A stretch of DNA of 64,000 nt, from assembly GCF_025144465.1 (NCBI RefSeq), contig NZ_CP083553.1:2540001-2604000 (forward strand), in the 5' to 3' direction. The notes under the pieces were generated by a model. That model was not told where the DNA came from. It made no database searches and saw nothing but the letters and a program-made list of their open reading frames with translations. The position numbers were made by a program, and so were the translations under genes. This stretch comes from Leisingera sp. S132. Lineage in GTDB: Bacteria > Pseudomonadota > Alphaproteobacteria > Rhodobacterales > Rhodobacteraceae. Shown piece after piece: positions 46,264-61,929 of this stretch (its first letter is position 1; each line of letters starts with the position of its first letter).

Positions 46264-47179
46264 TCACCCCATCGGCGCATAACTGGACCGCAGGCCGTCC
46301 GCTGCCTGACGGACCACCTCAGCCACCTGCATCAGCTGCCGGGCCAGCGGGTTGCTGCGGCGCCAGATCATGCCGATGGTGCGCGAAGGTTGCGGGTCGC
46401 GGAAACGGGCAACCGACACCTCCGCCGAGCGGGTTTCCACCGGCACCGCCATTTCCGGGATCAGCGTCACACCTATTCCGGCGCTGACCATCTGCACCAG
46501 CGTCGACAAGGAGCTGCCGTCCAGCAGTTCCCGCGGGGCCGCGGACTGCATATTGCAGAACGACAGCGCCTGGTCGCGGAAGCAATGCCCCTCCTCCAGC
46601 AGCAGGAGGCGCATCTCGCGCAGGCCCTCGGGACCCGGAACCGGCGTGCCGGCATCCTCCCCTGGGCGCACCAGGACAAAGTGCTCAGCAAACAGCGGCA
46701 CCTCTTCATATGAAGGCTCAGACACCGGCAGTGCGACGATGGCCGTGTCCAGCCGCCCCTCTCCCAGTTCCTCCAGCAGCTTGGGCGTCACCGTTTCGCG
46801 GACCCGGATATCAGCCTCGGGGTACTGGCTGGTGAGTGTGCCCACGATGGAGGGCAGCAGATAGGGTGCAATGGTGGGAATCACCCCGATGCGCAGGCGT
46901 CCGGCGAGCCCCTCGCGCGAGGCCCGTGCCAGCTCTCCCAGTTCATCCACCGAGCGCAGGATGCCGCGCACGCGGGCAGCCAGATCCTCACCCAGGCTGG
47001 TGAGCCGTACCTGACGGGCGCCGCGCTCCACCAGCTGCACCCCCAGCGCCTCCTCCAACTCTTTGATCTGAACAGACAAAGCCGGCTGAGACACCGCGCA
47101 GGCATCCGCCGCGCGGCCAAAATGGCGGTGCAGGGCCAGCGCCTCGAAATAGCGCATCTGGCGAAGGGTCACGTTTGTC

Positions 47180-47181
<2 letters not shown>
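46264..47181 (-). CDS. oxyR: Hydrogen-peroxide regulator OxyR (LysR family)
   Basis: A 305-residue LysR-type regulator with the winged helix-turn-helix at residues 1-60. The redox pair is Cys200 and Cys209 in GHCFRDQALSFC, matching Cys199/Cys208 of E. coli OxyR, which form a disulfide on peroxide exposure. It is divergent from katG, its expected target. Two T-N11-A boxes lie in the shared promoter region, one overlapping its own start codon. Confidence 0.93.
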
Positions 47182-49590
<2,409 letters not shown>

Positions 49591-49776: not shown

Positions 49777-51600
49777 TTACTCGGCCGGAGCCGCAGCCTT
49801 TTCACGCTGACCATCACGGAACAGCGCCTTGGCCAGGGACACGCACATCAGGCCCATGACCATGGTGAAGGGCAGCGCGCCGATGATCATCGCGCTTTTC
49901 AGCGCTTCCATCGGGTCGGCCCCGCCATTCTGCTTGCCCGCAAACAGCAGGGTGCCGATGACCGCGGTCAGGATCAGGCCCCAGACGATCTTGTGCTTGT
50001 TGCCGATGTTCTGGTCGCCGCCGGACATGATGGTGTTCATCACCAGGATGCCGGAGTCTGCCGAGGTGACCAGGAAGGTCATGATCAGCACCACGCACAT
50101 GATGGTGATGCCGGACAGCAGGCCGCCGTCGATCATGCTTTGCAGGGTCACGAACAGCTTTGCGGTGTTCGATGCGCCGATGATCGCGCCGTCTGCGCCG
50201 CCGGTCAGTTCCAGGTCGATGGCGGTGCCGCCCAGGATGGCCATCCAGGCAAAGCAGACCAGTGCAGGAGCAATCACACAGCCGAGGATAAACTCACGCA
50301 CCGACCGGCCGCGTGAAATCCGCGCCAGGAACAGGCCAACGAAGGGCGAGAACGCGATCCACCAGGCCCAGTAGAAGGTGGTCCAGCCCGCCTGCCAGCC
50401 AAACTGGCGCTGCGGCTCACCCGCAGCGTAAGCTGCTGCCAGAACCTCGTCGGACAGGGCAGCGGCTTCGCCTTCCAGGCCGGTCTTGAAGCCCTCAAAG
50501 GAGCCCCAGGCATTGGTTGCACCTCCGCGCAGCGCATCGGCGTAAGGTGCAGCATCTGCTGGCAGCGCTGCCGCAAAGTCCGCGGCCGACTGCGGCATGT
50601 AGGGGCCAAAGCTCAGCGCGGTGAAATGCAGGACGTAGTCCACAAAGGCCGAAGCATACGTGGTCATAGCGAACATGAAAGAGCCGAAAACCACGAACAC
50701 CAGCAGCAGGATCAGGGACAGAACCAAGTTCAGGTTCGACAGATACTTCACGCCGCGGCCCACACCCGAGACAGCTGAGATGATCGACAGGCCCATGATG
50801 GCAAAGAGACCGGCCAGCAGGCCAACGGTTCCCGGAGCAGGCGCATCACCGCTCATGTCCATCATCCATTCCATGCCGGTGACCGCGTAAACGCCGTCCA
50901 CGAACTGAGAAACGCCAAAGCCAATGGTGACGGAGACGCCCAGGATGGTGGCAACAACACCCAGAACGTCAACGACATGGCCCAGGAAGCCGTTCATCAG
51001 CTTGCCGAACAGCGGTGTCAGCGCGGTGCGGATGGTCAGCGGCATGTCGCGGGTATAGGCATAGTAGGCCAGCGACAGGCCGGTCACCACATAGATCGCC
51101 CAGGCGTGGAAACCGTAGTGCAGGAACGTGTAACGGAAGCCGGATTGAACGGCCTCTTCGGTGTTGGGTGTCACTTCCTGCGCCAGAACGACAGGGTTGG
51201 AGCCCCAGAGACCCATCGGCTCGGCGGTTGCAAAAACCATGAGGCCAACGCCGAGGCCGGCGCCGAACATCATCGAGAACCATGAGAAGTCCGAGAACTC
51301 TTTGCCCTGGCCCGGTCCCCCCATGATCCGCTTACCGGTTTGCGGCAATGCGGCGACCACAAACAGGAAAAAGGCGAAGAAACCGACGATAACGATGTAG
51401 AAGGCGTTGAAATCCTCAAGGATACGCCAGTTGAGGCTGCCCAGAACGCCCGTGGCGTTTGCCGGCCAGACCAGTGCCCAGAGAACCAGAGCGACCATGA
51501 TCCCCTTGCTGAGCAAGGCGATCTCGACACTGTGCCCCTTGTAGAAGCCCTGGTCGGAGGTCTTGATCTCCAGATCCGTAAAAGGTTGCTTTATAGACAT
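49777..51600 (-). CDS. BCCT family betaine/choline/carnitine-type transporter
   Basis: A 607-residue inner-membrane transporter with about 12 hydrophobic segments. The family core is visible in SMMFGAGLGVGLMVFATAEP and in the tryptophan-rich FGWQAGWTTFYWAWWIAFSPFVGLFLARISRG, which forms the aromatic box that holds quaternary ammonium groups. An insertion between about 355 and 410 is rich in Ala and Gly. ATG 51600 has GGGAGG upstream. Substrate is unknown but likely a betaine-like solute; it closes the catabolic cluster. Confidence 0.92.
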   Translation of the reverse strand: MSIKQPFTDLEIKTSDQGFYKGHSVEIALLSKGIMVALVLWALVWPANATGVLGSLNWRILEDFNAFYIVIVGFFAFFLFVVAALPQTGKRIMGGPGQGKEFSDFSWFSMMFGAGLGVGLMVFATAEPMGLWGSNPVVLAQEVTPNTEEAVQSGFRYTFLHYGFHAWAIYVVTGLSLAYYAYTRDMPLTIRTALTPLFGKLMNGFLGHVVDVLGVVATILGVSVTIGFGVSQFVDGVYAVTGMEWMMDMSGDAPAPGTVGLLAGLFAIMGLSIISAVSGVGRGVKYLSNLNLVLSLILLLVFVVFGSFMFAMTTYASAFVDYVLHFTALSFGPYMPQSAADFAAALPADAAPYADALRGGATNAWGSFEGFKTGLEGEAAALSDEVLAAAYAAGEPQRQFGWQAGWTTFYWAWWIAFSPFVGLFLARISRGRSVREFILGCVIAPALVCFAWMAILGGTAIDLELTGGADGAIIGASNTAKLFVTLQSMIDGGLLSGITIMCVVLIMTFLVTSADSGILVMNTIMSGGDQNIGNKHKIVWGLILTAVIGTLLFAGKQNGGADPMEALKSAMIIGALPFTMVMGLMCVSLAKALFRDGQREKAAAPAE

Positions 51601-51677
51601 GCGTTTCCTCCCGTTTCGCACGTGCCGCACCAAGGTGCGGATGGTCCGGCGGTTCGTGCAACCGCCGGTATTTGGCG

Positions 51678-51917
51678 TCAGCCCAGCTGAGCTTCGATCC
51701 TGGCCAGTGTTGCGGTACTGACCGCGACGCCGTCTGTACGGGCCTGCAAGCGCTTGGCCCGACGCCCGTCTCCGGGCAGATGTGCGCCGGCTTGCCCGCG
51801 CACCGCTTCTACGATCCCGGCCATTCCAGCACCAAAAGCGTCATTTGCTGTCGCAGCCGGGTCGATTGCGATGAACATTTGGCCGGTTTTCGGCGGACCG
51901 TCCGAGTTCGCGGAAAA
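51678..51917 (-). pseudogene. C-terminal remnant of a second Ldh-family oxidoreductase
   Basis: About 79 codons in an open frame (FSANSDGPPKTGQMFIAIDP to VAVSTATLARIEAQLG) align without gaps to the end of the Ldh-family protein encoded just upstream, with roughly half the residues identical by eye. Only the last quarter of such a protein is present; nothing resembling the N-terminal NAD-binding part is found. It lies between the intact Ldh gene and the BCCT gene and is best read as a decayed tandem duplicate. Confidence 0.75.
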
Positions 51918-51984
51918 CCGGCGTTTCTTAGTCCAGGGGGGCAGAACATTCGGAATAGCGGTCAAAGTCTCTCCCCTCGCGCGG

Positions 51985-52992
51985 TTATGCGATTGCTCGC
52001 ACACGCTCCAGCAGAGCAGCATTCACAGCGACCCCCTCTTCGCGGGCTCGCAAGCGCTTAACGCGGCGGTCGTCACCGGAAACAAAAGCACCTTCCTGTT
52101 CCCGGAAGGACTCGGTCAGGGCCTTCAAACGTTCTCCGAACATCTGGCCGGAGGTTGCATCAGGATCGATGGCAATAAAGAACTGACCTGTCTTCGGCGG
52201 GCCACCTGCTGTGCCCGAGAATGGGCTGGCTACCGCACCCAATGTGGCACCGGTCATAGCTGCTGCCATAATCTCAACCATCAACGCTTGGTTCACGCCC
52301 TTGTAGCCGCCCGACGGCACCATTGATCCCTTGAGACCTGCTTCTGGATCAGTAGTTGGCTTGCCGTCTGCATCCAACACCCAGCCTTCGGGAACCGGTT
52401 TGCCTTCGCGTGCGTGTTTCATAACTTCGCTTTTTGCGATCGTGCTTGCGGACTGATCGATCAGAACTTCTGCATCGCCTTTGCCATCCGGGGCAGCAAC
52501 CGAAATCGGGTTGGTGCCAACAACCGGTTTGGAACCGCCCCAAGGGGCGACGGACGCGGGAGCATTGGTGAAGCCAAAGCTCAGCAAACCGGCCTGGGCC
52601 AGACGCAGAGTGTGGATGCCCAGCACGCCGCAGTTGTAGGAGTTGTTCACAGCCAGAACGGCAACACCCTGTTCACGGGCTAGCGGCACCAGCTTTTCAA
52701 AACCCATATCGATTGCAGTATGCGCGAATCCGGTGGCTGCGTCAGCGACAAGCACAGCTGGGCGAGGCTGTGTCAGGACAGGCCGGGCCTGTCCATCCAC
52801 CTTGCCGCACTGAACATGCTCTGCGTAGATCGGGATATAGGCGAGACCATGCGAGGCAACGCCGTCCGCTTCGGTCATGGCTGTTGCCACAGCCAGCGGA
52901 CGTGCGTTTGCTTCCGTGGTGCCAGCCTTGACAAGCGCCCGGAAAGCCAGGTCTTCAATTTCTGCAAGTGTAAGTGTCTGGGTCTCGATCAT
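51985..52992 (-). CDS. Ldh family NAD(P)-dependent oxidoreductase
   Basis: A 335-residue protein of the malate/L-lactate dehydrogenase type 2 family. Typical landmarks are TEADGVASHGLAYIPIYAEHV, the catalytic His in SYNCGVLGIHTLRLAQ, and GTNPISVAAPDG followed by DQSAST. Related enzymes reduce delta-1-piperideine- or pyrroline-2-carboxylate, ureidoglycolate or sulfolactate, so a cyclic imino acid or 2-hydroxy acid is a reasonable guess. It is 13 bases downstream of the DUF3726 gene in the same transcript. Confidence 0.9.
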   Translation of the reverse strand: MIETQTLTLAEIEDLAFRALVKAGTTEANARPLAVATAMTEADGVASHGLAYIPIYAEHVQCGKVDGQARPVLTQPRPAVLVADAATGFAHTAIDMGFEKLVPLAREQGVAVLAVNNSYNCGVLGIHTLRLAQAGLLSFGFTNAPASVAPWGGSKPVVGTNPISVAAPDGKGDAEVLIDQSASTIAKSEVMKHAREGKPVPEGWVLDADGKPTTDPEAGLKGSMVPSGGYKGVNQALMVEIMAAAMTGATLGAVASPFSGTAGGPPKTGQFFIAIDPDATSGQMFGERLKALTESFREQEGAFVSGDDRRVKRLRAREEGVAVNAALLERVRAIA

Positions 52993-53005
52993 TTAGGTAC
53001 CTTTG

Positions 53006-53653
53006 TCAGTCATTGTCGGATAGCCCGGCACCGGCGCCGCGCAGTCGCGAAGCTTCGGTGGCGGGCGCATAGGTGCGGTGGGCAAGAACGCCAAGGCGGT
53101 CCCATGCCTCTGCCGGGGCGCTGCCGCGCAGCACCGGCTCGCGGCGTTCTGTCATGCTGGCAGGGGCAGTAAAGGTGACCTTGTCCGCCAGCCTGGCAGT
53201 ATAGGCATCCGGCGCGCCCTGGGCGCACAGCTGGCGTCCGTCGGTTGCCAGGCGGGCGCCGGCCCATTCCACGGAAACCGCCGTTTCCAGCCGCAGCGCC
53301 GCGCCGGCGGCGAAGGGCACCAGCAGCAACGGAACGCAAACGCGTTCCATCACGATCTGCCCTTCGTCCATCAGCTGCACCGCGCAATCGCTCAGAGCAG
53401 CCCCCGCAATCAGCGGGCTCATCCGGCCCGACGGCGCACGCCAAACGCCCTCCAGCGCGGACGGCGTAAAATCGGCAGGCGGCAGGCGGTCGTTCATTTC
53501 CAGGAGCTCGGCCAGAAGTTCAGCCCCCGGAAAGCCGAAGGAGGAGATCCAGCGGGTGCCCTTTGCGGCTTCCTCGGCCAGTCCCCAGCTCAACCCGGCA
53601 CCGCGGGCCGCGCGTTTGCACATAGCCTCGATTTCATTCAGCGAATGGGTCAT
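53006..53653 (-). CDS. DUF3726-like protein
   Basis: A 215-residue soluble protein starting SLNEIEAMCKRAARGAGLSWGLAEEA, the pattern I associate with DUF3726. The rest is a mixed alpha/beta stretch rich in Ala with no catalytic motif I can name. It overlaps the 570-residue unknown gene by 4 bases (ATGA), and the Ldh gene follows directly. Such linkage suggests a role in the same pathway, perhaps as an accessory to the oxidoreductase. Family name is from memory of the N-terminal pattern. Confidence 0.65.
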   Translation of the reverse strand: MTHSLNEIEAMCKRAARGAGLSWGLAEEAAKGTRWISSFGFPGAELLAELLEMNDRLPPADFTPSALEGVWRAPSGRMSPLIAGAALSDCAVQLMDEGQIVMERVCVPLLLVPFAAGAALRLETAVSVEWAGARLATDGRQLCAQGAPDAYTARLADKVTFTAPASMTERREPVLRGSAPAEAWDRLGVLAHRTYAPATEASRLRGAGAGLSDND

Positions 53654-55362
53654 GCCGGTGCCCCCTCTTCAAGCGTCGGATAGACCCAGAAATCAGCATT
53701 TTCCGCTGACAGGTCCTGAGGATACGGGGCATTGCCGTACATGCAGATCCGGACCCACCGGTCGGACCGGGGATCGAACTGGGTAGCGCCGAAAAAGGCG
53801 AGCTTGCAGCGGAGCATGTCAATCGGCAGGACATCATGTGAAATCGTGTTGTCCCGGATTTCCGCATATGGCGCACGTCCGGCAATCTGCACCCTGCGCA
53901 CCGTATGGCGGTGCTCAGGGTGGCGCAGCAGGAACTCGGCAACGCGGGTATCGCCCTGCCAATGAGCCAGCGCCTTGAACAAGGCAGCAGCGTCCCGCCC
54001 AGGCGCCAGCGGCTGTTCATACTCTTCGACTGGCTCTTCGAAACGCTCGCCCAGACGGGGTTCAAGCTTCTCCTCGGAGACATACCAGGCGCGGGCACGG
54101 TTTTCCGGCTGTTGCCAATCGGTGCCGATGGCCCATTCATAGACCCGCTCCAGCAGACCGCGCAGTTCCTCGATGGTCATTGCACCGGCGATGCGGAACG
54201 TCGGCGTATTGTCTGCGGCCATGCCGTTGCTCAGATCGTCCACCAGGCCGCCATAGGGCTCCAGCATCAGCGATGCGAGCCATTCCTGCCCTTCCAGCGT
54301 CAGCGTCTCTTCCGCCCAGCGGTACATCCGGTCCCAGGGATGGCTGCCGCTCAAAGCTTCAGGACTGGCCAGGTAGCCATCAATTTTCTCCAGATCGCTG
54401 CGCAGCTCACTTAGCTTGCGGACCTGAATTTCATGTTCCGAGTGCCACAGCGCCACGTTCTTCTTGCTGCGCTGCAACAGCTCCAGGAACAAACCCGTGT
54501 CTTCATCAGACGCACTGTCCAGGCTGCGGACGGTCCGGATCGCTTCCTCGCGGGAGGCAATCCAGTTGTTGAACAGAACCGGGTGGTTCAACAGGAATGG
54601 CGCCATGCCCAGTCCGGTTGAATTGCCGATCCCGAGCGAACGCGCCAGTTCCGGGGCCAGCCGGGCTGCAGTGTTCCCCGCAGCTTTGGCGCGCATGTCG
54701 GCCATATGCTGCACAAGATCGCGCACGTACCAGCGGGTCAGGAAAACCGACAGCATTTCTGCCTGAAACGGAACTTCGAACTCGGGGCGTGCGGCGATCA
54801 TCTCGCGGTCGGCAGCACCCAGCTTGCCAGAGCCGTAAACAGCGGTGGTCCGCATCAGGTATCCGACCGCCTGCAGCTGCTCTGGATCCGGCTGCTTCCC
54901 CTCTGCCAGGGAGGACACCACATGTTCCCACAGCCGCACAGACCGGTTCGCACGGGACACCGAAATCTCGCGCTCGCTGACCCGGCCCGCCTCCTGATAG
55001 GGGACGTTTTTCGAAAGCCGTTCGATATCTTCGTCGGTGGGGATGCCGTCAAACAGGGCAAAGGTGGAATCCCAAGCGGTTGCAATCACCCGGTCCGACC
55101 GCATTTCGGGCGGCAGATCGTGGGCAAAGGCAACCAGGGAGTAAGTCCGCGCAGGGGTGGTAGCGGAATAGACCGCCACACCAACGCCCTTGGCATCGAT
55201 ATCGAACTTGGGGCGTGCAAAGCTCCAGTTTTCCCGGGCCATGCGGCGTGTCAGCACCCGCATGAAGCTGAGGCGGCACTGATGCAAGGAACCGAGCCGG
55301 CTGAGGCGCATGACCTGTGCCGGATCCCGTCGTGATATCGTTGTCTGCGCGGTTGTTTCCAT
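53650..55362 (-). CDS. Unknown conserved-looking protein, 570 residues
   Basis: A large soluble protein with no signal peptide or membrane segment and no recognised domain. Distinct segments are SLHQCRLSFMRVLTRRM (about 27-43), GSGKLGAADREMIAARPEFEVPFQAEMLSVFLTRWYVRDL (about 185-225), GIGNSTGLGMAPFLLNHPVLFNNWIASREE (about 254-283) and HDVLPIDMLRCKLAFFGATQFDPRSDRWVRICMYG near the C terminus. Conserved-looking Cys, His and Arg residues could form an active site. Its position between the M19-like and DUF3726 genes, 3 bases and -4 bases apart, shows it belongs to the catabolic operon. It may be the key novel enzyme. Confidence 0.8.
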   Translation of the reverse strand: METTAQTTISRRDPAQVMRLSRLGSLHQCRLSFMRVLTRRMARENWSFARPKFDIDAKGVGVAVYSATTPARTYSLVAFAHDLPPEMRSDRVIATAWDSTFALFDGIPTDEDIERLSKNVPYQEAGRVSEREISVSRANRSVRLWEHVVSSLAEGKQPDPEQLQAVGYLMRTTAVYGSGKLGAADREMIAARPEFEVPFQAEMLSVFLTRWYVRDLVQHMADMRAKAAGNTAARLAPELARSLGIGNSTGLGMAPFLLNHPVLFNNWIASREEAIRTVRSLDSASDEDTGLFLELLQRSKKNVALWHSEHEIQVRKLSELRSDLEKIDGYLASPEALSGSHPWDRMYRWAEETLTLEGQEWLASLMLEPYGGLVDDLSNGMAADNTPTFRIAGAMTIEELRGLLERVYEWAIGTDWQQPENRARAWYVSEEKLEPRLGERFEEPVEEYEQPLAPGRDAAALFKALAHWQGDTRVAEFLLRHPEHRHTVRRVQIAGRAPYAEIRDNTISHDVLPIDMLRCKLAFFGATQFDPRSDRWVRICMYGNAPYPQDLSAENADFWVYPTLEEGAPA

Positions 55363-55365
55363 GAC

Positions 55366-56349
55366 CTATCCCTTTGGGCCAAAGTTTTCGGCGAAGAACC
55401 GGTACCAGTTCCCGCCCATGATGCCGCTGACCTCGTCATCGTTCATGCCCGTCGCGCGAAGGCCTTCTTCGATGTTTCCAAAGTCGCGGTTGTCCTTGAA
55501 CCAGCTAGGCATTGCCGGGAAGCCCGGCGCGGCGGCTGATCCTTCGCCGTAGTCGATCTCTTTCGTCCAGCGGCCGACGCGCATCCATTCAACGATGCTG
55601 TCGGGCTGATCCTGGCAGAGATCGGTGCCGATCCCGAGATGCTCCACCCCGTATTTCTCGGCAGTGCGTGCGATCATCTCGCAGAAGCTTTGCAGGGTAC
55701 AGTCGGACTTGCCCTTCAAGTGGTGCGGATAGACCGAGAACCCCAGCATGCCGCCGTGGCCGGTCACTGCGCGGATGACATCATCCTTCTTGTTGCGCAG
55801 GGCCGGCGACCATTCATGCGGGTTGGCATGAGTAATGGCGATCGGGCGGCTGGAAATTTCCGCTGCTTCGATGGTGGAGCGGTCGGCGGAATGGCTCATA
55901 TCCACGACCAGGCCGACCCGGTTCATCTCCTTGATCACCTGCTTGCCCATGCGGGTGATCCCCATGTCCTCAGCCTCGTAGCAGCCGGTCGCCAGCAGCG
56001 ACTGGTTGTTGTAGGTGAGCTGCATGAATCGGGCGCCGAGCGTGTGCAGGATCTCCACTAGGCCGATGTCGTCCTCCATCGGCGAGGGGTTCTGGAAGCC
56101 GAAGAACACAGCGGTGCGGCCGGTTTCGCGGGCCTTGTCGATGTCAGAGGCCCACTGCCCCTTCATGATCAGATCCGGGTACTGCTCGAACCAGCGGTTC
56201 CATTTCTCGAAGTTCAGGACCGTCTCGCGGAAGGTCTCGTGATAGGCAATGGTGACATGGATCGCGTCCACGCCGCCTTCGCGCAGCTGGCGGAAGATCT
56301 TCTCGGACCAGTTGGCATATTGCAGGCAGTCGATACGGTATCCGGTCAT
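55366..56349 (-). CDS. Membrane dipeptidase (M19) family protein lacking the N-terminal metal motif
   Basis: A 327-residue TIM-barrel amidohydrolase-type protein. The two downstream His ligands are in DMSHSADRS and ITHANPHEW, and the late Asp is in GIGTDLC. The family's N-terminal HxD, normally DGHND, is absent: the equivalent place reads IDCLQYANW. Relatives of this shape are linked to dimethylglycine catabolism in pseudomonads, so a role other than peptide cleavage is likely. It starts at ATG 56349, 136 bases after the aldehyde dehydrogenase. Confidence 0.85.
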   Translation of the reverse strand: MTGYRIDCLQYANWSEKIFRQLREGGVDAIHVTIAYHETFRETVLNFEKWNRWFEQYPDLIMKGQWASDIDKARETGRTAVFFGFQNPSPMEDDIGLVEILHTLGARFMQLTYNNQSLLATGCYEAEDMGITRMGKQVIKEMNRVGLVVDMSHSADRSTIEAAEISSRPIAITHANPHEWSPALRNKKDDVIRAVTGHGGMLGFSVYPHHLKGKSDCTLQSFCEMIARTAEKYGVEHLGIGTDLCQDQPDSIVEWMRVGRWTKEIDYGEGSAAAPGFPAMPSWFKDNRDFGNIEEGLRATGMNDDEVSGIMGGNWYRFFAENFGPKG

Positions 56350-56485
56350 TCAAGCACCTCGGTTATCTAAATCGCGCACCCGGCCCTAGGCGGCGGGCAG
56401 GATGCGCCCGCCACAGGGGAAACATGGAGGGCGGGCGCTTCCGCAAACTGGCAGGCCGGTCTTCGGCGCGGCCAGGATTTCAGTC

Positions 56486-57931
56486 TCAGACCGGCTTGCC
56501 GGCGCTGATGTAGGCGGTCTTGACGGTGGTGTAGAACTCCGCCGCCGCCTTGCCCTGCTCGCGCGGGCCATAGGAGCTGTCGCCGCGGCCGCCGAAGGGC
56601 ACGTGGTAGTCGGTGCCTGCGGTTGGCAGGTTGACAGTGACCACACCGGTGCGCGCGTTGCGGCGGAAGTGGGTGGCGCGGGCCAGCGACTGGGTGACGA
56701 TGCCCGAGGTCAGGCCGAAGTTGGTGTCGTTCACCACCGACAGCGCCTCGTCATAGCTGCCGACCTTGATCACGCTGGTCAGCGGTGCGAACATTTCCTC
56801 GCGGTTGATGCGCATGTTGTTGGTGGTGTTCAGGAACACGCCGGGGGACATGTAGAAACCCTCGTGCGGCATCTCCAGGCGCTGGCCGCCGCAGGCCAGT
56901 TCAGCGCCTTCAGAAGTGCCAATGTCCACATAGGCCAGGTTCTCGTTCAGCTGCTGCTCGCTGACCACCGGCCCCATCTGCACGCCCGCTTCCAGCGCGT
57001 GGCCCACTTTCATGGCCTGTGCCCCGGCGACAAGCTTGTCGACAAAGGCATCATGAATGGCCGCGTGGACCACGAGCCGGGAGGAGGCGGTGCATTTCTG
57101 TCCAGTGCCGCCAAAGGCGCCGCCCAGCGCCAGGGTGACGGCCAGATCCAGATCGGCGTCATCCATCACCGCCAGCGCGTTCTTGGAGCCCATCTCCATC
57201 TGCACCTTGGTCAGGTTCTGGATGGCGGCAGACGCGATGCCCTTGCCCACAGGCACCGAACCGGTGAAGGAAATCGCGTTCACCTTGGGGCTTTCGACCA
57301 GGCGCTGGCCGATAGAACGGCCCGACCCCATGACCAGCGAGAACAGGCCCTTGGGGATGTCTTGACGTTCGATGATCTCAGTCAGGGCAACAGCGGAGGC
57401 CGGGGTGATATTGGCCGGCTTCCACACCACTGCGTTGCCGTAGCAGAGCGCCGGAGCGATCTTCCAGGAGGCGGTCGCAGTCGGGAAGTTCCAGGGCGAG
57501 ATGATTGCCACCACGCCAACTGCCTCACGGCGCACGTCCACTTCGATATCCGGGCGCACGGAGTCGGCGTTTTCTCCGATCTGGCGCAGGCATTCGGCGG
57601 CGTAATAGGTGAAGAACTGGCCGGCGCGGTAAACCTCGCCCTTGCCTTCGGCCAGCGGCTTGCCTTCCTCGCGGCTCAGCAGTGTGCCCAGCTCCTCGGC
57701 GCGGGCCATCAGCTCATTGCCGATGTTCATCAGTACCGCCTGCTTGCGCTCCAGCCCGTAGGCCGCCCATTCGGCTTGGGCGATCTGCGCCTGATCCAGG
57801 GTTGCCTCCAGCTGATCGGAGCTGGCCTGGGCAAACATGCCAACCAGATCGTTCAGATCCGACGGGTTGCGGTTTTCGATTTCGCTTTCGCCAGCCAGCC
57901 ATTCGCCGGCAATCAGGTTCAGTTTGGTCAC
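56486..57931 (-). CDS. NAD(P)-dependent aldehyde dehydrogenase
   Basis: A 481-residue enzyme of the aldehyde dehydrogenase superfamily. Asn148 is in SPWNFP, Lys171 in VVWKPAN, the general base Glu246 in QMEMGSKN and the nucleophile Cys280 in GTGQKC, so the catalytic set is complete. The EMGSK form and overall pattern resemble 2-oxoglutarate semialdehyde dehydrogenases. The start is GTG 57931, giving MTKLNLIAGEW; the open frame continues upstream to 58384 but overlaps the divergent regulator. First gene of the catabolic cluster. Confidence 0.92.
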   Translation of the reverse strand: MTKLNLIAGEWLAGESEIENRNPSDLNDLVGMFAQASSDQLEATLDQAQIAQAEWAAYGLERKQAVLMNIGNELMARAEELGTLLSREEGKPLAEGKGEVYRAGQFFTYYAAECLRQIGENADSVRPDIEVDVRREAVGVVAIISPWNFPTATASWKIAPALCYGNAVVWKPANITPASAVALTEIIERQDIPKGLFSLVMGSGRSIGQRLVESPKVNAISFTGSVPVGKGIASAAIQNLTKVQMEMGSKNALAVMDDADLDLAVTLALGGAFGGTGQKCTASSRLVVHAAIHDAFVDKLVAGAQAMKVGHALEAGVQMGPVVSEQQLNENLAYVDIGTSEGAELACGGQRLEMPHEGFYMSPGVFLNTTNNMRINREEMFAPLTSVIKVGSYDEALSVVNDTNFGLTSGIVTQSLARATHFRRNARTGVVTVNLPTAGTDYHVPFGGRGDSSYGPREQGKAAAEFYTTVKTAYISAGKPV

Positions 57932-58018
57932 GGAAAAGCCCCAGATGCTGAATTTCAGGTTTCGTGCAGGATGGACTCCGGACGCCGCATCAGTCAAACT
58001 CAATAAACTGTAAAGAAC

Positions 58019-58033
58019 TTCAGGATTCTTGAA
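58019..58033. promoter_or_regulatory. Candidate LysR operator between the ALDH and LysR genes
   Basis: TTCAGGATTCTTGAA has the TTCA-N7-TGAA dyad and T-N11-A spacing of LysR-type boxes, extended by an outer C/G pair. It ends 2 bases before the LysR start and about 90 bases from the aldehyde dehydrogenase start. Confidence 0.5.
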
Positions 58034-58035
58034 GT

Positions 58036-58920
58036 ATGGCGTTGAAAATCGAAATGCTGCGCGCTTTCTGCACTGTGGCCCAGACCGGCAATCTGTCTGA
58101 GGCCGCAAACAGGCTGGGCCGGACCCAATCCGCTGTTTCCATGACACTGAAGCAGATGGAGGAGCATCTGGGCAAGAAGCTGTTTGAAGGCGAGCGCAAA
58201 AATCAGCTATCGCCTTTGGGCGCGCAGGTTTTTGAACTGGCTCAGCAGCAGGTGCGGCGCTTCGACCAGACCGTGCAAAGCATCGAATTGGCTGCAGAGG
58301 CGGCCCACGGTCTGCTGCAGATTGTCTCGGTTCCCTCCGTCGCCGCGCTGGTTTTTCCGGCGGTGCTGGAGCATATGACGGCACGCCACCCCGGGCTCAA
58401 GGTGGAGTTGCGCGACACAGACACCCAGGAGGTGCTTGATGCGCTGGCGGAGGGCAAGGCGGATATTGGCATCGCCTCCGGCTATCATCCCCTGAACGGC
58501 GTAAGGGCGGTTCCCTTGTTCGAGGACCGGTTTGGCCTGGTCTGCTCCACGGAGCATCCGCTGTACCGGCAGGAGGCCGTGCCGGAAATTGCTGATGTGA
58601 CCGCTGCGGGTTTTGTCCGCAATGCCCTGTGCGATCTGATCCGTAACGAGCGCTTTGTCGAGGCCAGCAGCAAGGCCGATGTGACGATCCACAACACCCA
58701 TTCTCTGATCACCATGGTGCGGACCGGCAAATGGGTCACCGTGCTGCCGCAGACGGTCGCCCGCTTCATGCCGGAAGCCACCGCCTTTCGCCCTATTGCC
58801 GATCTGCCCGACAAGCGGGCGGTCTACCTGTACCAGCGCGAACGGTCCCGCTTTGCCGCACTGACAGAGGAATGCTGCACCTTCATCCAGTCCTGCGGCC
58901 TGTTCGGCGCGCCGGGCTGA
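58036..58920 (+). CDS. LysR family transcriptional regulator of the catabolic cluster
   Basis: A 294-residue regulator with the N-terminal winged helix-turn-helix (SEAANRLGRTQSAVSMTLKQMEEHLG) and an effector domain from about 90. It is transcribed divergently from the aldehyde dehydrogenase with about 100 bases between, which holds a good LysR-type dyad. It therefore probably activates the cluster in response to the substrate or an intermediate. The effector is not known. It converges on the ABC transporter gene btuD, 40 bases away. Confidence 0.92.
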   Translation: MALKIEMLRAFCTVAQTGNLSEAANRLGRTQSAVSMTLKQMEEHLGKKLFEGERKNQLSPLGAQVFELAQQQVRRFDQTVQSIELAAEAAHGLLQIVSVPSVAALVFPAVLEHMTARHPGLKVELRDTDTQEVLDALAEGKADIGIASGYHPLNGVRAVPLFEDRFGLVCSTEHPLYRQEAVPEIADVTAAGFVRNALCDLIRNERFVEASSKADVTIHNTHSLITMVRTGKWVTVLPQTVARFMPEATAFRPIADLPDKRAVYLYQRERSRFAALTEECCTFIQSCGLFGAPG

Positions 58921-58960: not shown

Positions 58961-59722
58961 TCAAGCCAATTGAAAAGACAGGAAGGGGTCCGCCCCATCG
59001 GCCTCGCGGACCCACCGCGCCTTGATCCCGAAAATCTCGGAAATCGTATCTGGGGCCAGTGCTAGTTCAGGTGCGCCACAGGCGACCAGCCGCCCATGCG
59101 ACAGCACCGCCACCTTATCGCAGGTCAACGCCTGGTTGAGGTCATGCAGGGCCACCACGGTGGTCACCTTCAGGTTCCGGATGCAGTGCAGGATCGACAG
59201 CTGGTGATGGATATCCAGATGGTTCGTCGGCTCATCCAGCAGCAGGAGCCCCGGCCGCTGCGCCAAGGCGCGGGCAATGTGCAGCCTCTGCCGTTCACCA
59301 CCTGACAGGGTGGCCCATTCGCGGCTTGCGAAGCCTTCCATCTCAACAGTGGCCAGTGCCTTATCCACCAGCGCGGTGTCCTCAAAGTTCCAGGGTTTCA
59401 GCACCGACAGCCAAGGGGTACGGCCCAGCTCCACAACGGAGCGGGCGGTAATCCGTTCGCCGGTGTCGGCCTGCTGCTCGACAATGGCAATCCGCTGGGC
59501 AATCTGGCGGCGTGTCAGCTGGGCCAGCGGCATGTCCGCCAGAAGCACCTGCCCTTGCGTTGGTTTTGCGAGACCGGACAGCAGCCGCATCAAGGTCGAC
59601 TTGCCGGAGCCGTTCGGCCCGACCAGAGCCAGCGTTTCGCCTGGCTGAACCGACACAGACACATCTTGCACCAGGGTTCTGCCGCGCACGGCAAACGACA
59701 GGTTGCGGGCTTCGATCTTCAT
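58961..59722 (-). CDS. btuD: ABC transporter ATP-binding protein, cobalamin type
   Basis: A 253-residue ATPase with Walker A GPNGSGKST, the signature LSGGERQRLHIARAL, Walker B LLLLDEPTNHLD and the switch His in ALHDLNQA. It belongs to the FecE/BtuD group that powers iron-complex and vitamin B12 import. It overlaps the permease by 4 bases. Assignment to cobalamin rests on the riboswitch upstream of the operon, not on this sequence alone. Confidence 0.85.
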   Translation of the reverse strand: MKIEARNLSFAVRGRTLVQDVSVSVQPGETLALVGPNGSGKSTLMRLLSGLAKPTQGQVLLADMPLAQLTRRQIAQRIAIVEQQADTGERITARSVVELGRTPWLSVLKPWNFEDTALVDKALATVEMEGFASREWATLSGGERQRLHIARALAQRPGLLLLDEPTNHLDIHHQLSILHCIRNLKVTTVVALHDLNQALTCDKVAVLSHGRLVACGAPELALAPDTISEIFGIKARWVREADGADPFLSFQLA

Positions 59723-60768
59723 CGTGCAGCCCTTTGCCCGCGCACCAGGATCACAGCAAAAGACGGCGCCCCGATCAAGGCGGTGACAACCCCGATAGGC
59801 AGCACCTGGCCGGGGATGATGATGCGGGACACGATGTCGGCAGCGATCAGGAACACCGCACCGGTCAGCGCCGCGGCCGGCATCAGCCTGCGGTGGCCGG
59901 GGCCGACCAGGAAGCGTGCGGCATGGGGGATCACCAGGCCGACAAAGCCGATGGAGCCGACGATCGACACCATTACCGCGGTCATCAGCGCAGTGGCAAA
60001 GATCAGCACCACCTGAACCCGCCGGACCGGGATGCCAAGTGAAGCAGCGGAGTCGCTGCCGAATGTGAACGCATCCAGCGCGCGGGCATGGAACCGGCAG
60101 ATCATCCAGCCCGCCAGCGCCAGCGGCACCGCCAGCCACACATCCGGCCAGCGCACGCCGCTGAGGTTGCCCATCAACCAGAACATGATGCCGCGGGCCT
60201 GATCGGCATTGGCGGACTTGGCGATGATAAAGGCGGTCAGCGCGTTGAACAGCTGCGAACCGGCGATACCCGCCAGAACGATCTGAGCCGCCGCGGCGCG
60301 GCTGCCCCCTGCCCCGGCCGCGCGGGCCAGGATGGCGACAAAGCCAAAGGCCAGCAGCGCCCCGTTGAAGGCGCCGAAGGACAACGACAGGGCGCCGCCG
60401 CCAAGCCCGGCGATAGTCACCGCAACCGCGCCGGTCGAGGCGCCGGCCGAAATACCCAGAATATAAGGGTCCGCCAGCGCGTTGCGCAGCAGCGCCTGCA
60501 GCACCACGCCAGCCACCGCCAGCGCCGCTCCGCAGGCCGCAGCCACCAGCGCCCGCGGCAGCCGGTAGCTCCAGATGATGCCCTGGTCCACCGGGTCCAC
60601 CGGCAGGCCCGCCCCGGCCAGCTTGTTGGCCAGAACGGACAGAACTAGGTCAGGCGCAAGCGGGGTTTCCCCGATCATTGCACCAGCCAGAACCGCCGCG
60701 GCCAGCACTGGCAGGGCCAGGCATGCGCCCCGGATGCCCTGCCAGGCCAATGCGGCGGCTGCGCTCAT
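59719..60768 (-). CDS. btuC: FecCD family ABC permease, cobalamin type
   Basis: A 349-residue integral membrane protein with about ten hydrophobic segments and the family signatures LPRALVAAACGAALAVAGVVLQ and GSIGFVGLVIPHAAR. Two copies would form the channel with two ATPase subunits. It overlaps its neighbours by 4 bases on both sides, so all three proteins are made in step. FecCD permeases for siderophores look alike; the riboswitch favours B12. Confidence 0.87.
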   Translation of the reverse strand: MSAAAALAWQGIRGACLALPVLAAAVLAGAMIGETPLAPDLVLSVLANKLAGAGLPVDPVDQGIIWSYRLPRALVAAACGAALAVAGVVLQALLRNALADPYILGISAGASTGAVAVTIAGLGGGALSLSFGAFNGALLAFGFVAILARAAGAGGSRAAAAQIVLAGIAGSQLFNALTAFIIAKSANADQARGIMFWLMGNLSGVRWPDVWLAVPLALAGWMICRFHARALDAFTFGSDSAASLGIPVRRVQVVLIFATALMTAVMVSIVGSIGFVGLVIPHAARFLVGPGHRRLMPAAALTGAVFLIAADIVSRIIIPGQVLPIGVVTALIGAPSFAVILVRGQRAAR

Positions 60769-61775
60769 TCGCCGTTGCCGATCGCGCTGAGTTCAGCAGC
60801 CAGATCCTCCAGCGCCGGGATGGCGCGGATGGTGGCATCCATGGCCTGGGCGTCCATCACCACGATACGATCATTTTTGACCGCGTCCATCTGGCTGGCG
60901 ACCGGATCATTGCGCAGGAACTCCAGCTTTTTCTCATAGTCATCCGCGGCAAAGCGGCGGCGGTCCATACGGGCAATCACGATCACGGTCGGGTTGGCCT
61001 TGGCGATGGTCTCCCAGCCCACGGTCGGCCATTCCTCGTCGGTTTTGATGACATTGCGGAGGCCCAGCTGCTGCATCATGTAGCCCGGTGCGCCCTTCTG
61101 GCCGGCCACGAACGGGTCGCTTTCCATCTCGGGCGAAGAGAACCAGAACACGGCGGAGGCGTCGTCCAGCGCAACCTCCTGCGCCTTGGCCACAGCCGCG
61201 GCCTCGCGCGCCTTGTAGTCTGCGACCAGTTCCGCGCCCTTCCCGGCCTCGCCGAAGATCGCCGCCAGTTCCTCGATGCCCTGATAGAGGCTGTCGGTGG
61301 TGAACATTTCGGTGCGGGTGCCGTCACCGCCGGTGGTGTTGTCCTTGCCAACGCAATCTGCGGGCATCACATAGGTCGGGATGCCGAGGTCATGGAACTG
61401 CTCGCGCTTGGCGACCACGCCTTCGGGGCCGACATGCCACTCATACTGGGCCGCCACCAGACCGGGGCGTTTGGCCACCACGCTTTCAAAGCTCGGATCG
61501 TTGTCCGCGAGGCGTTCGACCTTGCCGTTCAGCTCGGCAAATTCGGGCAGCACATCGTTGAACCAGACCGAGGTGCCCAGCACCTTGCCGCCCAGGCCCA
61601 GCGCATAGAGCACCTCTGTTGCAGCCTGGCCAACGGTCACGGAGGACGCAACGGGCGCCTCAAAGGTGACGGTCTCGCCGCAGTTTTGAAGGGTCAGCGG
61701 AAAGGTCTCGCTGGCGGCGGCTGCCTGAGCGGCCGCAACGAAAGAAAGGCCCATCAGGCCGGAACGCAGAAACAT
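60765..61775 (-). CDS. btuF: ABC transporter substrate-binding protein, cobalamin type
   Basis: A 336-residue periplasmic binding protein of the TroA/BtuF type, with a signal peptide (about 1-20, ending AAAAS). It has two alpha/beta lobes joined by a long helix; landmarks are AATEVLYALGLGGKVLGTS and RPGLVAAQYEW. ATG 61775 is preferred over 61790 because GGAG lies 9 bases before it and the hydrophobic signal then starts at once. First gene of the operon, directly downstream of a cobalamin riboswitch. Confidence 0.87.
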   Translation of the reverse strand: MFLRSGLMGLSFVAAAQAAAASETFPLTLQNCGETVTFEAPVASSVTVGQAATEVLYALGLGGKVLGTSVWFNDVLPEFAELNGKVERLADNDPSFESVVAKRPGLVAAQYEWHVGPEGVVAKREQFHDLGIPTYVMPADCVGKDNTTGGDGTRTEMFTTDSLYQGIEELAAIFGEAGKGAELVADYKAREAAAVAKAQEVALDDASAVFWFSSPEMESDPFVAGQKGAPGYMMQQLGLRNVIKTDEEWPTVGWETIAKANPTVIVIARMDRRRFAADDYEKKLEFLRNDPVASQMDAVKNDRIVVMDAQAMDATIRAIPALEDLAAELSAIGNGE

Positions 61776-61929
61776 GATTTCGATCTCCATGTGTCAATGA
61801 CCGGAGAACGGGTGAAAGGGCATTGACCGGTCAGGCGAAGGGATCCGGCCCTTCTTGCAGCCTCCAGCGCTGGCGGCGCATGTTACCGGCAACCTCCCCG
61901 GACAACCCCGTCCGGTGTGCTTCAGTTTT

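Follow-up and report, generated by a model that had tools for sequence, protein, structure and literature searches.

A widespread operon of Leisingera sp. S132 that probably serves the catabolism of homarine

In this study, we report the analysis of a conserved catabolic operon in a 64,000-nucleotide stretch of the genome of Leisingera sp. S132, referred to as the window, within which all coordinates are given unless another record is named. The operon consists of genes for a transporter of the BCCT family, an Ldh_2 oxidoreductase, a DUF3726 protein, a 570-residue protein (P570), an M19-like protein and an aldehyde dehydrogenase (ALDH), together with a divergent LysR-type regulator, and taken as a whole it is probably a catabolic operon for homarine (N-methylpicolinic acid). 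We read it in this way because it is linked to genes that are probably those of N-methylglutamate dehydrogenase (Mgd), an enzyme with a published role in homarine catabolism. Homarine is likely to be the substrate and N-methylglutamate is equally likely to be the product handed over to Mgd; the participation of P570 and DUF3726 in opening the ring is somewhat favoured, and the exact cleavage chemistry given below is tentative. Homarine is a nitrogen-containing compound made by marine plankton. Mgd takes part in its breakdown (PMC13390433, in the part available to us, citing Ferrer-Gonzalez 2026, Nat Microbiol).

The catabolic genes form a run on the minus strand. From the regulator onwards these are the genes for ALDH (56486-57928; Pfam Aldedh, E 2.7e-148), the M19-like protein of amidohydrolase fold with an altered metal site (55366-56349; Pfam M19, E 1.1e-71), P570, the proposed ring-opening enzyme (53650-55362), the DUF3726 protein, its proposed partner subunit (53006-53653; Pfam DUF3726, E 2.5e-26, 91.8 bits against a PF12525 cut-off of 22.1), Ldh_2 (51985-52992; Pfam Ldh_2, E 6e-92, 308.7 bits against a PF02615 cut-off of 38.8) and the BCCT transporter, assigned to uptake (49777-51633; Pfam BCCT, E 7e-141, 470.4 bits against a PF02028 cut-off of 27). 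The LysR-type regulator, possibly homR-like, faces this run on the plus strand (58036-58920; Pfam HTH_1 and LysR_substrate). The ALDH start at 57928 is our choice, the mechanical open reading frame extending to 58384. P570 and DUF3726 overlap by 4 bases, and 3 bases separate M19 from P570. A sequence-only reading of this DNA had named these seven genes, the divergent LysR and the overlapping or nearly touching gene ends, and the Pfam domains and coordinates bear it out on all three counts; its gene list overlooked a 114-residue open reading frame at 51678-52022, whose final 79 residues (51678-51917, minus strand) are, by identity to other Leisingera-type Ldh_2 proteins, the C-terminal remnant of a second, replaced resident Ldh_2 gene. 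Two more BCCT genes are found elsewhere in the S132 genome. The nearest NCBIfam models for ALDH are those of alpha-ketoglutaric semialdehyde dehydrogenase and 2,5-dioxovalerate dehydrogenase, both below cut-off (477.4 bits against 770 for the former, NF042993), and its nearest solved chains are mostly betaine aldehyde dehydrogenases.

That this is a real and widespread conserved operon is near certain. P570 was found in 91 of 198 genomes of the family, sampled at one per genus, in 53 of 385 genomes of the class and in 22 of 299 genomes of the phylum, the last including three families outside the class; relatives were also present in 168 of 72,556 plasmid records, and the viral contigs searched held none. 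A scan of named genomes, from which the best 80 of at least 556 coding stretches were retained, yielded mainly members of the Roseobacter group, but also Pseudovibrio, Roseibium and some differently named bins, and in all 80 of these best-scoring loci a DUF3726 reading frame directly follows P570. Neighbours were then counted by tblastn over 156 loci (the window, the 80 named loci and 75 others, some genomes being counted twice). M19 lies within 5 kb of P570 on the same strand in 148 of them, a detectable DUF3726 near it in 135, ALDH within 6 kb in 109, LysR within 7 kb in 102, Ldh_2 in 75, two types of BCCT in 35 and 32, and RidA in 26; some frames opposite ALDH, M19 or Ldh_2 in the early gene maps (c9, c11 and c17) were treated as mis-called antisense. 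The gene order is kept in many genera. Copies of the window BCCT, 69-96% identical, accompany P570 in 34 other loci, and elsewhere the uptake gene is instead an ABC importer of the glycine-betaine/choline type. A chance neighbourhood was rejected in view of the conservation of the set across genomes and loci. The conserved order across bacteria and the importers support the earlier proposal that the genes take up and degrade a nitrogen-containing, betaine-like solute and that P570 is the step left unassigned.

The M19-P570-DUF3726 trio also occurs in four small AT-rich genomes (1.2-1.4 Mb; 28-36% GC in the stretches read), which match SAR11-type bacteria in size and composition; in two of them the trio is preceded by genes for a choline/betaine ABC permease and ATPase, with a third ABC gene assigned as the binding protein by its position, and for ALDH. 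On soil plasmids of Aminobacter and Pararhizobium, the full LysR-ALDH-M19-P570-DUF3726-Ldh-betaine ABC set was present, with P570 about 46% identical. The set is thus not confined to marine bacteria, since soil and rhizobial plasmids carry it or its relatives too.

The link to Mgd comes from genes for a four-subunit oxidase of the sarcosine oxidase type, which lie within 10 kb of the operon in 13 of the 156 loci (11 of the 150 distinct P570 rows left after six short or identical ones were set aside). Their alpha, beta and delta subunits were identified by domain models, and the gamma candidate matched none. Among three such operons in the S132 genome, the ortholog of these locus neighbours is that at 219.5-224.7 kb of contig 1 (identities of 86% for SoxB, 76% for SoxA and 52% for AraC), with one gene between it and the AraC gene, and with GmaS (TIGR03105, above cut-off) 16 kb beyond. 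Because of this short distance to gmaS, the S132 copy and the oxidase genes neighbouring the operon are probably Mgd; SoxB of this type directly adjoins GmaS in three genomes (G134, G039 and G071). In the trimethylamine cluster of R. pomeroyi, which includes gmaS, mgdABCD is immediately preceded by tmaR, of the AraC type (PMC13390433, in the part available to us), whereas in S132 the AraC gene is on the opposite side. A plain sarcosine operon was rejected, since the adjacent genes belong to the type that lies close to GmaS or directly beside it. A PF13738 search of the S132 genome was uninformative.

The association was also seen in genomes that lack GmaS. Among the 137 of 198 family genomes that are GmaS-negative, SoxB of the Mgd type, as separated from other SoxB by a cut set by eye at E 1e-212, was present in 15 of the 39 whose P570 is at least 50% identical and in 5 of the 98 that lack such a P570 (Fisher p 3.6e-6, kinship ignored); two of the 15 were counted by partial hits, and G070 is the only borderline genome within this count. 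The oxidase genes are joined to the operon on the Ruegeria TM1040 megaplasmid, on P. inhibens pPGA1_262 (where Ldh_2 is not listed) and in Aliiroseovarius crassostreae. A further case is a record under the name Roseateles sp. XES5, flagged as an unverified organism: here genes of the sarcosine oxidase type, a betaine ABC importer, purU and folD lie on the flanks of the operon, which places tetrahydrofolate one-carbon handling alongside it. Beside the operon on pPGA1_262 (L276, 13497-20980), genes were observed for a Rieske-type dioxygenase, an FAD oxidoreductase, an aldehyde dehydrogenase and a PDR/VanB reductase, a set that perhaps serves another quaternary amine pathway.

The nature of the product is suggested by Ldh_2, whose nearest solved relative is DpkA (1wtj, E 3.7e-53; the next at 1e-37). 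From 2-oxo acids and methylamine, DpkA forms N-methyl amino acids, and it also reduces cyclic imino acids (PMC6110843, in the part available to us). The window protein shares with it the reduction of an imine beside a carboxylate, as proposed here, and may be a dehydrogenase of the N-methyl-amino-acid type, DpkA being its closest solved relative; the relationship is distant (184 bits over 331 residues), and the window Ldh_2, unlike DpkA, shares its operon with P570 and DUF3726. Beside P570, Ldh_2 was present in 71 and RidA in 25 of the 150 distinct rows, and both in only 1 (p 4.5e-7), with at least 21 changes for Ldh_2 and at least 16 for RidA on a quick tree. Since the two genes hardly ever co-occur, their alternation suggests two fates of one N-methyl-imine. 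All 13 Mgd-flanked loci have Ldh_2 and none has RidA, and over 30 loci from genomes of known Mgd status, the genome held Mgd for 12 of the 15 loci that carry Ldh_2 and for 5 of the 15 that do not (p 0.025, with two genomes entering the count twice).

P570 had no match in Pfam, NCBIfam or the PDB sequences when searched as a single sequence, and a 20-row profile reached no better than E 0.68 against the PDB sequences. Its AlphaFold model, built from 59 sequences, is of good quality (pLDDT 85.1, pTM 0.89), and Foldseek found no match for it at E<=0.001 in PDB or BFVD. Several of the least certain loops of the model (174-181, 250-252 and 431-435) coincide with the highly conserved stretches GSGKLG, TGLGM and EEKLEPR, as would be natural for active-site loops that settle only once a ligand or partner is bound.

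For DUF3726, a model from 60 sequences (pLDDT 92.7) predicts a shortened Ldh_2 fold. In Foldseek against PDB, ranks 1-26 were all of the Ldh_2 type (best 1nxu, E 2.9e-4, probability 1.00), and the six matches at E<=0.001 had TM scores of 0.43-0.48 on the query. This relation rests on the model and on a weak, below-cut-off Pfam Ldh_2 match of the S. meliloti counterpart (E 0.025), because sequence profiles are silent: compared by profile with a shallow Ldh_2 alignment, DUF3726 gave a probability of 6%, and its profile matched none of the PDB sequences. The protein differs from Ldh_2 in length (215 residues against about 335) and in lacking any His among its invariant or near-invariant columns, whereas Ser-His-Gly is invariant in the Ldh_2 proteins. 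The last residues of DUF3726 show strong conservation, yet 208-215 are uncertain in the model, which fits a C-terminal tail that binds P570. DUF3726 was not mentioned in the literature searched.

The two-metal ligand set of M19 dipeptidases is His-x-Asp, Glu, His, His and Asp. Among relatives of the window M19 protein, 158 of 165 sequences gave a long enough alignment; the first His is replaced by Leu in 157 of the 158 and the bridging Glu, read against 5lx0, by Gln in all 158, while two His and one Asp are retained in all. The same Leu and Gln are found in the nearest PDB entry, 2i5g (E 5.8e-55), which we take to come from Pseudomonas aeruginosa. Judged by these residues, the M19-like protein is not a normal dipeptidase and its metal site is partly replaced.

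The operon appears to be under the control of its divergent LysR. Aligned LysR-ALDH gaps contain a conserved block, represented in the window by the operator-like inverted repeat ACTTCA-N7-TGAAGT at 58017-58035. Counting only loci in which LysR directly faces ALDH, the core TTCA-N7-TGAA was present in 60 of 72 distinct gaps, against 0.16 expected from mononucleotide shuffles (40 of 47 gaps with a LysR at least 50% identical, and 20 of 25 with a more distant one). An extended 40-base pattern has a single perfect match in the S132 genome, at 57994-58033 of the window, and three others at 3 mismatches, a backwards control giving one match; the regulon of this LysR is therefore probably this operon alone. 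Independent regulation of LysR and the operon was rejected given the conserved repeat in the shared gap, and the suggestion that the genes form one co-regulated catabolic unit is strengthened by the same repeat and by its unique extended form.

The window copy of the operon is a mosaic. Its LysR, ALDH, M19 and BCCT, and the KatG and OxyR genes beyond, share 95-99% identity with their counterparts in Leisingera sp. SS27 (L084), whereas P570 shares 71%, DUF3726 45% and Ldh_2 75%. The DUF3726 protein (70-71%) and Ldh_2 (80-81%) are nearer to those of Pelagimonas and Ruegeria R13_0, and P570 slightly so (74% and 72%). With the Ldh_2 of L075, L084 and L088, the stub at 51678-51917 shares 87-90% identity (89% with L084), and in L075 only P570 (92%) and DUF3726 (95%) are of the imported type, its Ldh_2 being of the resident type. 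It is probable from these identities that P570-DUF3726(-Ldh_2), at 51985-55362, was exchanged as a unit for a foreign allele in a Leisingera-type operon, leaving the resident Ldh_2 stub behind; such a block exchange is consistent with P570 and DUF3726 being physical partners.

In the pathway that we propose, homarine would be imported by BCCT and its N-methylpyridinium ring opened by P570 with DUF3726 as partner subunit, most likely by cleavage between C5 and C6 with oxygen to give an N-formyl-N-methyl C5 semialdehyde. ALDH would convert the aldehyde to a carboxylate, the M19-like protein would remove the one-carbon acyl group to leave the N-methyl-enamine or imine of 2-oxoglutarate, and Ldh_2 would reduce this to N-methylglutamate, from which Mgd, encoded elsewhere in the S132 genome, would form glutamate and methylene-tetrahydrofolate. 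In operons without Ldh_2, RidA may hydrolyse the imine to 2-oxoglutarate and methylamine. The LysR protein would control the operon through the TTCA-N7-TGAA operator. A similar logic is known from the trigonelline pathway TgnABCD, in which the ring of an N-methylpyridinium carboxylate is cleaved, followed by an aldehyde dehydrogenase and then by N-formyl removal; the present system differs in that no flavin monooxygenase family was matched for P570 or DUF3726 in Pfam or NCBIfam. None of the trigonelline literature matches concerned a pathway of the window type.

The homarine operon that Ferrer-Gonzalez and colleagues are said to have described in 2026, homABCDER, reportedly yields N-methylglutamate and glutamate. 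It reportedly has five genes and a regulator, a size that would fit ALDH, M19, P570, DUF3726, Ldh_2 and LysR. In the literature searched, the only source on a homarine operon was PMC13390433, in the part of which available to us the published pathway has in common with ours an N-methyl compound and the probable involvement of Mgd; the window copy, for its part, is a mosaic with the scar of a second Ldh_2. Taken as a whole, the operon has probably been published already, and what is left concerns the nature of the two proteins P570 and DUF3726. The sequence-only claim that the set matches no known pathway is accordingly doubtful, since the Mgd link leads to the pathway for homarine that appeared in print in 2026.

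Several observations weigh against the assignment to homarine. The Mgd genes are not adjacent to the operon in the window, and 24 of the 39 GmaS-negative genomes with a close P570 are without a gene of the Mgd type, so Mgd is not obligatory. GmaS-positive genomes showed no association of Mgd with P570 (28 of 39 against 16 of 22), and with a second, 43-48% identical form of P570 Mgd was present in 0 of 13 GmaS-negative genomes. The class of Mgd-type SoxB was cut by eye, and its identities to the S132 copy (69-90%) overlap those of the other type (66-71%). Mgd also belongs to methylamine use (PMC13390433, in the part available to us), and its presence alone therefore proves little. The exclusion between Ldh_2 and RidA becomes only suggestive when kinship is removed: among 14 independent pairs differing in Ldh_2, RidA differed in the opposite direction in about 5, in the same direction in 0 and not at all in about 9 (median p 0.06), and neither gene is beside P570 in 56 of the 156 loci. 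The M19 protein lacks ligands normally needed by a two-metal hydrolase, and an oxygenase role for P570 is a guess, because neither a known family nor a known fold was matched.

Other N-methylated heterocycles were considered as the substrate. If the substrate were stachydrine (proline betaine) or N-methylproline, it could pass through N-methylglutamate semialdehyde to N-methylglutamate by ALDH and on to glutamate by Mgd, which accounts for ALDH, for uptake by BCCT or a betaine ABC importer and for the Mgd link; related clusters are carried by rhizobia, which use stachydrine. This scheme leaves P570, DUF3726, M19, Ldh_2 and RidA without a task, the gene maps, whose neighbours were annotated in part, show no further conserved operon gene, and among nine annotated plasmid regions a Rieske-type gene is near only in P. 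inhibens; we consider it very unlikely. The substrate might also be another N-methylpyridinium compound or cyclic betaine, such as trigonelline, pipecolate betaine or hydroxyproline betaine, degraded along the lines proposed for homarine, since the gene functions suit any N-methyl heterocyclic acid, Ldh_2 is nearest to a cyclic imino acid reductase, and the operon occurs in soil and rhizobial bacteria. Besides methylamine and its parent amines, however, homarine was the sole Mgd-linked substrate met in the sources, which were available in part and were not searched for Mgd with each rival substrate, and this alternative appears unlikely as well.

A broader possibility, compatible with the homarine assignment, is that P570, DUF3726 and M19 form a general complex for processing C-N bonds in several pathways. 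Rhizobial P570 forms are about 31% identical. On an S. meliloti plasmid (L274, 8220-19662), such a distant form makes up a trio with M19 and a second small protein, next to genes for IclR, RidA, a class III aminotransferase, succinate-semialdehyde dehydrogenase and an ABC importer; to judge from its genes, this region may serve a different pathway. Similar gene sets surround distant P570 forms in further plasmid regions. The 43-48% form of P570 was observed in many Rhodobacteraceae (L056-L065, for example L064:9184-10839), mostly with M19 and partly with a DUF3726-like protein, and the close ALDH or LysR is not alongside; G055 has both forms. Since soil rhizobia carry distant forms of the trio beside an aminotransferase and succinate-semialdehyde dehydrogenase, its action is probably not restricted to homarine, a further point against that substrate as its only one, and it probably performs one kind of chemistry that feeds different pathways. 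A general complex is, in our judgement, possible but doubtful.

Flanking genes complete the picture of the window. After the operon, at 46264-49590, are genes that we take to be catalase-peroxidase-like and a divergent OxyR-like gene, LysR domains being matched in Pfam, and the same arrangement was observed in the Leisingera loci L084 and L088. Beyond LysR, at 58961-61790, are what are presumably the binding protein, permease and ATPase genes of an iron-type ABC importer, for which model support comes only via a relative of its ATPase in L075.

What is new here is that P570 is unmatched although its model is confident, together with the Ldh_2-like fold predicted for DUF3726, the exclusion between Ldh_2 and RidA, the change in the M19 metal site and the mosaic operon. 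If the homarine assignment is true, it provides candidates for every reaction by which a widespread marine nitrogen compound is degraded, and narrows the chemistry still to be explained to P570 and DUF3726. The alternation predicts that operons with Ldh_2 would yield N-methylglutamate and those with RidA would release methylamine. It is conceivable, at somewhat less than even chances, that P570 and DUF3726 constitute a new two-subunit enzyme for opening aromatic rings, in which a large subunit of a fold without solved relative would be reached by the flexible, conserved tail of a small, cut-down Ldh_2-type partner, and which would have spread, with an M19 protein that has lost one metal site, as an exchangeable block among marine and soil proteobacteria and in more than one N-heterocycle pathway. 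Being widespread, confidently modelled and without a solved relative in our searches, P570 is a good target for work on structure and mechanism.

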